Shown piece by piece: positions 26,340 through 61,991 of a stretch of 64,000 bases of DNA. Where the stretch lies: contig QCKB01000001.1 in assembly GCA_003215655.1 (NCBI GenBank), positions 248,001 through 312,000 of the forward strand, given 5' to 3'. The stretch's first letter is position 1, and each line of letters opens with the position of its first letter. The notes beneath the pieces were generated by a model. The model ran no database searches. It saw only the letters and a program-made list of their open reading frames with translations, and was not told the origin of the DNA. A program made the position numbers and the translations under genes. The stretch is from Prochlorococcus sp. AG-409-J16. Its GTDB lineage: Bacteria; Cyanobacteriota; Cyanobacteriia; PCC-6307; Cyanobiaceae.

Positions 26340-27761
26340 ATGGGCAAATCTCCCCAGGACGTTCTCCGCCAGATCAAGGACGAGAATATCGAACTTATTG
26401 ACCTTAAATTCACTGACCTACATGGCAAGTGGCAGCACCTCACTGTGACCTCAGACATGGTTGACGAAGAGGCTTTCCTGTCAGGGCTTGCATTTGACGG
26501 GTCTTCCATTCGTGGATGGAAAGCTATAAATGAATCTGACATGGCAATGGTTCCAGATTCGGCAACAGCCTGGATAGATCCTTTTTATCGCCATAAGACA
26601 CTTAGTCTTATCTGTTCAATTCAAGAGCCTAGATCTGGCGAACCTTATGAAAGGTGCCCTAGAGCGTTAGCTCAAAAGGCTCTTGCATATTTATCAAGCA
26701 CTGGTTTGGCTGACACGGCATTCTTTGGCCCAGAGCCGGAATTCTTCCTTTTTGATGATGTTCGATATGACTCAAGTGAAGGAGGTTGCGCATATAGCGT
26801 TGACACAATCGAAGCTCCATGGAATTCAGGCAGAATTGAAGAAGGAGGAAACCTTGCCTACAAAATTCAATTAAAGGAGGGATACTTTCCAGTTTCACCA
26901 AATGACACTGCTCAAGATATTCGCTCTGAAATGCTTCTATTGATGGGACAGCTTGGTATCCCTATAGAGAAACACCATCATGAAGTTGCTGGTGCTAGTC
27001 AGCATGAGCTTGGGATGAAATTTGCAGAGCTTATTCAAGCTGCTGACAACGTAATGACTTACAAATATGTAGTTAGAAATATCGCCAAGAAATATGGCAA
27101 AACTGCTACTTTCATGCCAAAGCCAGTTTTCAATGACAATGGGACTGGAATGCATGTCCACCAAAGTCTTTGGAAAGGAGGTCAACCCCTTTTCTTTGGT
27201 GAAGGAACATACGCAAACCTTTCCCAAACAGCTCGTTGGTATATAGGTGGAATCCTTAAACATGCTCCTTCTTTCCTTGCCTTCACAAACCCTTCTACCA
27301 ACAGTTACAAGCGTCTGGTACCTGGCTTCGAAGCACCAGTAAATCTTGTTTATTCTCAAGGCAACCGTTCTGCAGCTGTTCGGATACCTCTGACAGGCCC
27401 AAGCCCAAAAGCAAAGAGACTAGAATTCCGCTCAGGAGATGCCTTAGCAAACCCCTATTTAGCCTTTAGCGCAATGATGATGGCAGGCATTGACGGAATA
27501 AAGAACCAAATAGACCCTGGAGAGGGCGTAGATGTGGATTTATTTGAACTTCCAGAAGAGCAATTATCTAAAATCGATACAGTACCTTCATCCTTAAACG
27601 GAGCGCTAGAAGCACTAAACTCAGATAAAGGGTATTTAACTGAAGGTGGAGTATTTACTGAAGATTTCATCAACAACTGGATTGAAATCAAATACGAAGA
27701 AGTACAGCAACTTAGGCAACGTCCTCATCCTTATGAGTTCAGCATGTATTACGACGCATAA
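26340..27761 (+). CDS. glnA: Glutamine synthetase type I
   Basis: ATP-dependent ammonium assimilation, feeding the GS-GOGAT cycle. The 473-residue dodecamer-forming subunit shows [24 protein letters not shown], the metal-binding [36 protein letters not shown] and NRSAAVRIP. The tyrosine adenylylated in enterobacterial GS is replaced by Phe402 (VDLFELPEE), so covalent adenylylation at that site is not possible. Cyanobacterial GS is controlled instead by NtcA and, in many species, inactivating factors. Preceded by the NtcA promoter and followed by a long palindrome. Confidence 0.98.
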
Positions 27762-27808: not shown

Positions 27809-27862
27809 TTAAAGTAATGAGCTCCAGCTAACTTTAAAGTTAGCTGGAGCTCATTACTTTAA
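27809..27862. repeat. 54-bp perfect palindrome downstream of glnA, possible terminator
   Basis: The left half (27809-27835) and right half (27836-27862) are exact reverse complements with no spacer, centred in ACTTTAAAGT. In RNA this forms a stem of about 25 bp with a minimal TTAA-centred loop, including the GC-rich core AGCTCCAGCTAAC. It lies 48 bp after the glnA stop and about 130 bp before the next rightward start. No long U tract follows, so it is not a typical intrinsic terminator. It may act as a 3'-end stabiliser or block, or be a cruciform-type repeat. Confidence 0.8.
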
Positions 27863-27996
27863 GTTTGCGAAGAAATTGCTAAACAAGCTTTTCTCCTTTA
27901 CGCTCTTAAGTCAAATCTAGCACCCAAGCAAGCAGCTTATATTACCAACTATTTATCGACTTGGATGTTAACTACATAACTGAGCTTTTATATGTC

Positions 27997-28401
27997 ATGG
28001 AAACTTTTAAAGACATCCTTTTCGGCATAAGCGGAGTAAGCATGATCTTCTGGGTAGCAGTAATAGGAATTTGGCATGTTGATATGTTCCCAAGATTTTT
28101 TAAGGATGCTGATATAGCCATCACCGATATGCAATCAACCTATAAAAAGGTTGCCTCATCATCAAAAGAAAGTGACCTCTTAGACAAAGGCTCACTACGT
28201 CCACATATCAAAGGGACAGGTCTTAAAGACAGAGGGACCTATACACGTAAAAGCTTTGTAATAGCTGATTTCCGGCCTGTCGAAGAAAGCTACCAAACAG
28301 ACAGGCTCTATACAACAATATTATTAAGTCTTGGGGTAATGTCTTTTATCATGATTTCATATGCATTCCGTGGTGGTCTAACTATGCTGCTCAATGGGTA
28401 A
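27997..28401 (+). CDS. Unknown membrane protein with two predicted helices
   Basis: About 134 residues from ATG 27997; a TTG at 27961 would add 12. There is an N-terminal hydrophobic helix (about residues 8-30, ISGVSMIFWVAVIGIW) and a C-terminal one (about 108-128, TILLSLGVMSFIMISYAF). They flank a soluble loop rich in Lys, Asp and Ser with a central GTGLKDRGTYTRKSF. Not recognised as a named family. It follows the palindrome downstream of glnA, and whether it is co-transcribed with glnA is unknown. Confidence 0.65.
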   Translation: METFKDILFGISGVSMIFWVAVIGIWHVDMFPRFFKDADIAITDMQSTYKKVASSSKESDLLDKGSLRPHIKGTGLKDRGTYTRKSFVIADFRPVEESYQTDRLYTTILLSLGVMSFIMISYAFRGGLTMLLNG

Positions 28402-28499: not shown

Positions 28500-28781
28500 C
28501 TATTCTTGACAAGTAATCTTATTTGCAATCGCATTCAGCATTGCTTGACGCTCAAGTGGTGGTATTGGTAAACATAGCAACTCATCAACCAAATCAATCC
28601 GCCACAGAATTTGACTATTAGGGTCATCTGGATCCTCCAATCTGTAATGAACACCTTCATTAAAGTCTCCAGATTGCTGCTCAAGCTCAGATTCTGAAAT
28701 TCCTAGATATTCCAAAAGTTCCGATGTCGAGAACCATTGATTCGGGGTGCCCATGAAAATCTGACTGGTAGATGCAGTCAT
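28500..28781 (-). CDS. Small conserved acidic protein, helix-turn-helix-like
   Basis: A 93-residue acidic protein. The segment WFSTSELLEYLGISESELEQ looks like the start of a MerR/excisionase-type winged helix, followed by FNEGVHYRLEDPDDPNS, which fits a wing, and a Leu-rich helical end. No enzyme motif or membrane segment. A second in-frame ATG (MGTPNQWFS, residue 10) could be the true start. It lies alone between convergent and divergent neighbours. Function unknown; DNA binding is only suggested. Confidence 0.65.
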   Translation of the reverse strand: MTASTSQIFMGTPNQWFSTSELLEYLGISESELEQQSGDFNEGVHYRLEDPDDPNSQILWRIDLVDELLCLPIPPLERQAMLNAIANKITCQE

Positions 28782-60947: not shown

Positions 60948-61991
60948 TTAATCGCTTGTACCACCCAAAGCTTCCCGAAGCACAATCAATTGATCCCAAG
61001 GACGCCCCTCCTCTAGAACATTTTTAGCCATTTCCAATCCTTCTTTTAAATCTTCCTTGATCCCAGCAGCCCATAACACTAAAGCTGTATTTAGAGCGAC
61101 AACATCTCTTTGGGGATTCGTCCCTTTACCCTGCAATACGGATGTAAGAATTCTTTGATTAGCCAAGAGATCTCCCCCCTTAAGCTGCGATAAAGGTGCA
61201 TTAGCAAGCCCTAAGGAGGATGGATTAATTAAAGATTCTTTAATTAATCCATTTTCCAGAAACCTTATTAAATTTTCACCTTCCAAAGAAGCTTCATCAA
61301 TACCTCCTGCCCCATGAACAACAACTGCTCGATGCAACCCCAGCTTCTGTAGTGCTTCCGCCATTGGATCTAACAGTTCAGGCTTAGCGACTCCAAGCAC
61401 TTGAGAATTAGGTGCAAGAGGATTTACAAGTGGTCCCAATAGATTAAAAACAGTTCTTATCCCTAGGTTTTTTCTCAATGGTGCCAAATTAACCAATGCA
61501 GGGTGCCATGCAGGTGCAAATAAAAATGTAACCCCTGCTTTAGGCAAAGCTTCAACAACGACTTCGAGTGGTGCTTTGAGGTGAATTCCTAGTCCCTCAA
61601 GGACATCTGCCGAGCCAACCTTACCGCTTGCACTTCTATTCCCATGTTTTGCGACATTTGCACCACATGCTGCAGCCGTAAAGGCAACAGCAGTAGAAAT
61701 ATTGAATGTTTCAGCCCCATCACCTCCTGTTCCACAAGTATCGACCATCTCTAAAGAGGGGGGGGGGCAAGGTAATGGACAAAATTCCCTTAGGACCTTC
61801 GCCATAGCAGCTAGTTCTTCTCCAATTACACCTTTAGATCTAAGCGCTGATAAGAAAGCGCCAGTTTGCACTGGCGACAATTTTTCTTCAAGCCAGGCCT
61901 TCATTAATGACGCCGCTTGAATTTGAGAAAGATTGTGCCCATCAATAATCGACTCAAGCATTTGAGGCCAAGTGTTTTCTGTCAATTCCAT
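60948..61991 (-). CDS. trpD: Anthranilate phosphoribosyltransferase
   Basis: Second step of tryptophan synthesis. Conserved PRPP-binding segment [19 protein letters not shown], then [21 protein letters not shown], and [18 protein letters not shown]. 347 residues is normal. A run of ten G (C10 on the coding strand, 61758-61767) encodes Pro-Pro-Pro just before SLEMVDTCG. The ATG at 61991 has no Shine-Dalgarno, only a T7 tract and hairpin immediately upstream. Upstream of carA on the same strand. Confidence 0.96.

Follow-up and report, generated by a model that had tools for sequence, protein, structure and literature searches.

A perfect palindrome shortly after the glutamine synthetase gene glnA of this Prochlorococcus genome (positions 27809-27862) probably acts, judging from its sequence and that of its relatives, as an RNA hairpin that sets or protects the 3' end of the glnA mRNA. 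Pairing in the glnA 3' flank is conserved among low-GC relatives even though the letters of the stem have largely been replaced. In most low-light lineages outside the NATL-like clade, this genome included, the stem is present without the U-tract of an ordinary terminator.

A perfect palindrome follows glnA

The window, that is, the whole stretch of 64,000 nucleotides that was analyzed, corresponds to G000:C1:248001-312000 of a 1.84 Mb picocyanobacterial genome, and its glnA is closest to those of Prochlorococcus-type genomes. The features around the palindrome are as follows.

26340..27761, + strand: glnA, glutamine synthetase, 473 aa (Pfam Gln-synt_C 3.8e-137, Gln-synt_N 5.7e-30)
27809..27862, + strand: perfect palindrome, predicted hairpin of the glnA transcript with 25 pairs and a UUAA loop (repeat search and RNA fold)
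27858..27870, + strand: 3' tail of the hairpin, poor in U (at most 3 T in a row), terminator-like in the scan
27997..28401, + strand: next gene, 134 aa, without a Pfam match, with relatives in 20 of 101 genomes

An inverted-repeat search confirmed the exact 27-bp arms without spacer that a first-pass annotation of this DNA had reported downstream of glnA: the arms (27809-27835 and 27836-27862, 27 nt each) are 100% complementary with 0 nt between them, and the palindrome starts 47 nt 3' of the glnA stop codon. No other inverted repeat of the window with a distance of up to 60 nt is longer than 21 nt, and given the local composition ∼3e-11 palindromes of this kind would be expected by chance per 64 kb. 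When a stretch of 139 nt containing the palindrome was folded as RNA, a stem of 25 pairs with a UUAA loop was obtained (z -6.8). The same annotation had noted neither a mismatch nor a clear U-tract. The arms are indeed flawless, and the 3' arm with the 10 nt after it contains no more than 3 T in a row, but the second half of the statement has to be softened, since TTTAAGTTT comes after the GTAATG..CATTAC core and a simple terminator scan flags the palindrome on both strands, its rule of 5 T in 8 picking up the site once the stem is trimmed to 20 pairs.

The gene at 27997-28401 had matches in 20 of 101 family genomes, its own genome counted, in a whole-genome search with its 134 residues, and a peptide-pattern search of the genome contigs with a 146-residue frame found no relatives of this ORF. 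Because it is conserved and on the same strand, it can be regarded as a real gene that is there to be insulated from glnA. It is a small gene between glnA and a methyltransferase gene, and its relatives sit elsewhere in their genomes. The terminator scan found no further terminator-like site on the + strand between 27858 and 29950. On the opposite strand, a 93-aa ORF (28503-28781) gave a below-cut-off match to DUF1233, a putative excisionase (E 0.0085).

The palindrome in its own genome

To place the stem among others in this genome we surveyed 464 kb, consisting of the window and 20 further stretches and amounting to about a quarter of the genome. It contained 20 perfect stems with a minimum length of 12 nt and loops of at most 20 nt, versus one (13 nt) in a mirror-repeat control, and the glnA stem was the longest perfect short-loop inverted repeat of the survey. 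Nine of the 20 were intergenic; those stems follow glnA and genes that we take to be psaF-like, plastocyanin-like, groEL-like and psbB-like, among others. In the own-genome sample 231 genes had a gap of at least 40 nt behind them, and 18 of these are followed by a hairpin with a score of at least 14, some hairpins being shared by converging pairs.

Several other stems in this survey are worth recording. A 24-pair perfect palindrome (L103:12358-12409, which is G000:C1 484358-484409) has an A5..GC..T5 terminator core inside, from which pairing continues outward; its neighbors are presumably a psaF-like gene region and a converging guanylate-kinase-like gene. An 18-pair perfect hairpin (L106:10097-10139, G000:C1 542097-542139) lies between converging genes and is U-poor on both sides. 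A 16-pair perfect inverted repeat with a 1-nt loop occurs at 61220-61252 of the window within a 347-aa minus-strand ORF, and several further perfect inverted repeats in the 464 kb sample are likewise inside ORFs.

In a whole-genome DNA search of both strands the palindrome matched only itself, apart from two 14-nt chance matches. The search for the arm sequence that had been suggested for this element thus returned a single copy, which means that it is not a mobile repeat, and a REP-like or MITE-like repeat was rejected because such repeats occur in many copies. A phage origin was also rejected, as a search for distant matches in 50,697 phage records turned up nothing beyond stretches of 21-42 nt (E 0.7). 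So was a known RNA family, since in Rfam 15 the palindrome matched just four miRNA precursor models, with scores well short of the cut-offs.

Pairing at the glnA 3' end is conserved in relatives

For comparison we assembled 151 distinct glnA 3' flanks, 79 from family genomes and 72 from other records. Of the 34 initial loci, L023 and L033 (cut by contig ends), L031, L032 and L034 were left out; 60 flanks were picked by genus from 151 matching genomes so as to cover mainly low-GC genomes, and among 80 further loci 6 were duplicates of flanks in the set and 2 were unusable. A hairpin was called strong at a score of at least 14, and this limit as well as those for T runs were set by us. With these settings a strong hairpin was present within the first 200 nt in 104 of 121 low-GC flanks (GC <0.40), compared with 7 of 605 dinucleotide shuffles and in contrast to the 18 of 231 genes counted in this genome's own sample. 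Stems of at least 20 pairs occurred in 15 of the 121 flanks and in none of the 605 shuffles, and the median stem in the other low-light rows (those outside the high-light-like, NATL-like and MIT9313-like groups) was 17 pairs. No strong hairpin was seen in 10 of these 44 other low-light rows, which indicates that the glnA hairpin is not indispensable.

That the stem is an assembly artifact is highly improbable. The palindrome is known from assembled sequence, and inverted junctions can arise in amplified DNA, but similar glnA stems are present in four single-contig genomes (19 pairs in G010, 23 in G003, 26 in G080 and 21 in G075), and their position is conserved. The stem lengths also bear on a second alternative, in which RNase III would cut the 25-pair perfect stem and thereby make the mRNA 3' end. 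The stem exceeds two helical turns and the genome encodes RNase III (184 bits against a cut-off of 166 in a profile search), yet with so few flanks reaching 20 pairs and a low-light median of 17, we regard this route as unlikely.

The letters of the glnA stems are mostly unrelated between lineages, even within one genus label (for instance G010, G115 and G223), and the loops of the relatives' hairpins reach 19 nt. The glnA genes themselves align over their full length and gave a tree in which 24 of 48 inner branches were well supported. Two neighbors in this tree, G200 and G212, have visibly related stems in which, by eye, several pairs are altered on both sides. In the NATL-like group nine stems could be aligned: 96.9% of the cells pair, 6 of 19 pairs carry two-sided changes, a value that none of 500 shuffles equaled, and pairing falls to 42-47% when the partner is slid by one column. 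Retained pairing together with two-sided changes implies that pairing at the glnA site is selected, or copied from arm to arm, or both. The comparison with sister strains for conserved pairing, which could have gone against the hairpin, therefore came out in its favor.

The turnover of letters also argues against a DNA element, be it a protein-binding palindrome, a cruciform or a mobile repeat. Although the symmetry in DNA is perfect, the element is present once in the genome, its counterparts have no common core and have loops of up to 19 nt, and it matches no Rfam family at cut-off; the earlier suggestion of a structural DNA element has found no support and is very hard to credit.

We then considered groEL. 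A strong hairpin was found in 4 of 19 low-light groEL rows, none with a U-tract, with the rows of G007 and G021 being misplaced (groEL off the contig or partial). The conservation seen at glnA is therefore not common to every highly expressed gene, and groEL could not be added to glnA as another gene whose hairpin is conserved. These data also concern the possibility that the palindrome arose through template switching as a neutral by-product without function. Such a by-product would be expected to have perfect arms and no spacer, and the psaF-like stem (L103:12358-12409) pairs well beyond a complete A5..T5 core, which is more than a terminator needs. However, pairing is kept position-specifically at glnA across lineages with unrelated letters, two-sided changes have accumulated, and groEL by contrast has few strong hairpins, so that we consider this neutral reading improbable. 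The statement that retention of the palindrome reflects selection or a recent origin can accordingly be kept in part: the relatives point to selection for pairing at this site, while for this particular copy the two are inseparable.

The U-tract is missing at glnA in most low-light lineages

After strong glnA stems, a T run of at least 5 was found in the narrow window in 53 of 53 high-light-like, 12 of 14 NATL-like and 15 of 21 high-GC rows, and in 2 of 4 rows with the MIT9313-like genus label. Among the other low-GC (low-light) strong stems it was found in 5 of 34 in the narrow window and in 6 of 34 when the whole 3' arm plus 10 nt was used, which leaves 28 of 34 stems, that of this genome among them, without a U-tract. 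Rows were sorted into the high-light-like, NATL-like and 'other' groups on the basis of their genus label or of common stem letters, and the counts per group are therefore not blind to the sequence; in addition, L209 (Cyanothece) was counted in the 'other' group with the narrow T window and left out with the wide one. The clade names rest on genomes that we take to be MED4, MIT9312, NATL2A, SS120, MIT9211 and MIT9313.

The U-poor stems are followed by a mean best T count in 8 nt of 4.79, versus 3.65 nearby, and reach at least 6 in 9 of 34 cases. This weak bias makes the lack of a U-tract a matter of degree. When the U-poor label was mapped onto a tree of 51 glnA genes, it took 9 changes, compared with 17.3 for shuffled labels; the label is clustered and covers most of the low-light radiation. 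Stems with a U-tract belong chiefly to the high-light and NATL-like clades and to the outgroup, and to a small number of scattered rows. The U-tract may have been lost once and then regained, or it may have been lost many times.

As a control gene we used psbB, for which 30 loci out of 53 matches were sampled, 16 of them low-light. All 16 low-light loci had a strong hairpin, and a T run of at least 5 was present in 16 of 16 (3' arm plus 10 nt) or 12 of 16 (narrow window). In the 12 low-light genomes that provided both genes, the U-tract was present at psbB in 12 of 12 and at glnA in 1 of 8 strong stems (Fisher p 1e-4). Normal terminators are thus present in the same genomes, and the loss of the U-tract is not general. 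Some psbB stems (L243, L242, L245 and L246 from G003, G007, G031 and G027, respectively) pair on past the U-tract, and the psbB stem L258 from G025 has 29 pairs without a T run.

These counts are central to the question whether the palindrome is a canonical intrinsic terminator whose U-tract (TTTAAGTTT) has degenerated and whose A-rich 5' flank pairs with the U-rich 3' flank, lengthening the apparent stem. Such a reading would account for the scan flagging the site, for the weak T bias after U-poor stems, and for the psbB stems of G003, G031, G027 and G007, in which U-tracts of 5-9 T are absorbed into a longer stem. Set against this are the mere 6 of 34 low-light strong glnA stems with a T run of at least 5 and the contrast between psbB (12 of 12) and glnA (1 of 8) in the same genomes, and on balance a canonical terminator appears somewhat unlikely.

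A possible mechanism for glnA 3'-end formation

In the hairpin reading, transcription of glnA would cross both arms, the RNA would fold into the 25-pair stem, and the stem would fix the 3' end of the mRNA at or near this place. Two ways of doing so can be envisaged. The polymerase might be released with only a weak U-rich tail, which would make the element an I-shaped terminator, or the stem might halt the 3'-to-5' trimming by PNPase of a transcript that ended further downstream. PNPase is present (951 bits, cut-off 525), and a profile search of the genome for Rho gave only 22-bit matches against a cut-off of 509. U-poor 3'-end hairpins of E. coli are explained, in the portion of PMC13289151 available to us, by Rho-dependent termination followed by trimming; in a genome that lacks Rho, such a route would require transcription to be ended downstream by some other means. 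Moreover, the accessible text of PMC7406221 associates U-tract-free hairpins in Synechococcus PCC 7002 with shorter half-lives than hairpins that have a U-tract, which argues against a plain stabilizer.

The earlier proposal of an mRNA 3'-end protector is supported as far as a 3'-end role is concerned, given the excess of hairpins over shuffles (104/121 versus 7/605) and the two-sided changes, while the choice between protector and terminator is not settled by sequence. We favor a mixed role in which the stem, and not the U-tract, is under selection at glnA in low-light Prochlorococcus lineages. A more far-reaching proposal, which we offer tentatively and consider rather doubtful in its entirety, is that the low-light glnA 3' end is made by a stem-only, U-tract-free mechanism without Rho, that photosystem genes use normal terminators, and that glnA lost its U-tract, which the NATL-like and high-light clades later regained.

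Template switching is described as creating and maintaining hairpins in the part of PMC8794818 at hand. We infer that arm-to-arm copying at replication by this process, plus selection for pairing, is the simplest explanation for perfect arms combined with full turnover of letters. Since a terminator needs no pairing beyond its core, the extended psbB stems and the psaF-like stem fit growth by template switching.

It is not yet settled how cyanobacteria, which lack Rho, end their transcripts. In Synechococcus elongatus, canonical terminator features were found at the ends of only 22% of transcription units, according to the available section of PMC13289151. The orthologous glnA 3' ends with and without a U-tract, together with the psbB control in the same genomes, make stem-only 3'-end formation directly testable. 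If true, the stem-only reading turns the low-light group into a natural experiment on U-tract-free 3'-end formation. Some of the genomes with these 3' ends presumably belong to cultured strains. Perfect stems that are kept while their letters are replaced also offer a case in which to test whether template switching makes hairpins.

Comparison with known systems

Among the literature matches listed, which consisted of titles and beginnings of abstracts with partial coverage, none described long hairpins poor in U from Prochlorococcus, be it at glnA or at another gene. The kind of element is already known; what is new is how long it is, that the U-tract is lacking in a gene-specific way, and that its letters turn over.

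With canonical intrinsic terminators the palindrome shares its position, symmetry and stem-loop, being a stable hairpin of 25 pairs that begins 47 nt past the stop codon, and the high-light-like and NATL-like relatives carry a U-tract at the same site. It differs in having no T run above 3 and in a stem whose length is roughly two to three times that of the psbB cores. The E. coli REP-type or Rho-dependent stabilizing 3' hairpins (as covered in the accessible part of PMC13289151) are similar in that a U-tract-free stem could block a 3'-to-5' exonuclease, but no Rho match in this genome reaches the cut-off, and the glnA element is not repeated.

A further comparison is with the I-shaped terminators, hairpins without a U-tract that form one of the WebGeSTer classes described in the text available from PMC7406221. 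The likeness lies in a hairpin soon after the stop codon without a U-tract, and the glnA hairpin falls within the limit of 270 nt from the ORF. The search in that source, as far as its accessible text goes, allowed stems of 4-12 nt, whereas the glnA stem has 25-27 pairs, is perfect, and varies in its letters by lineage. Compensatory evolution is known from Bacillus cereus terminators (PMC5381666, available part). With these and with template-switched hairpins (PMC8794818) the glnA hairpins have in common, on the portions of both sources at hand, two-sided changes that keep pairing and perfect stems. Compared with what those portions describe, turnover at glnA has gone further, to the point where the stems of sister lineages mostly have no letters in common.
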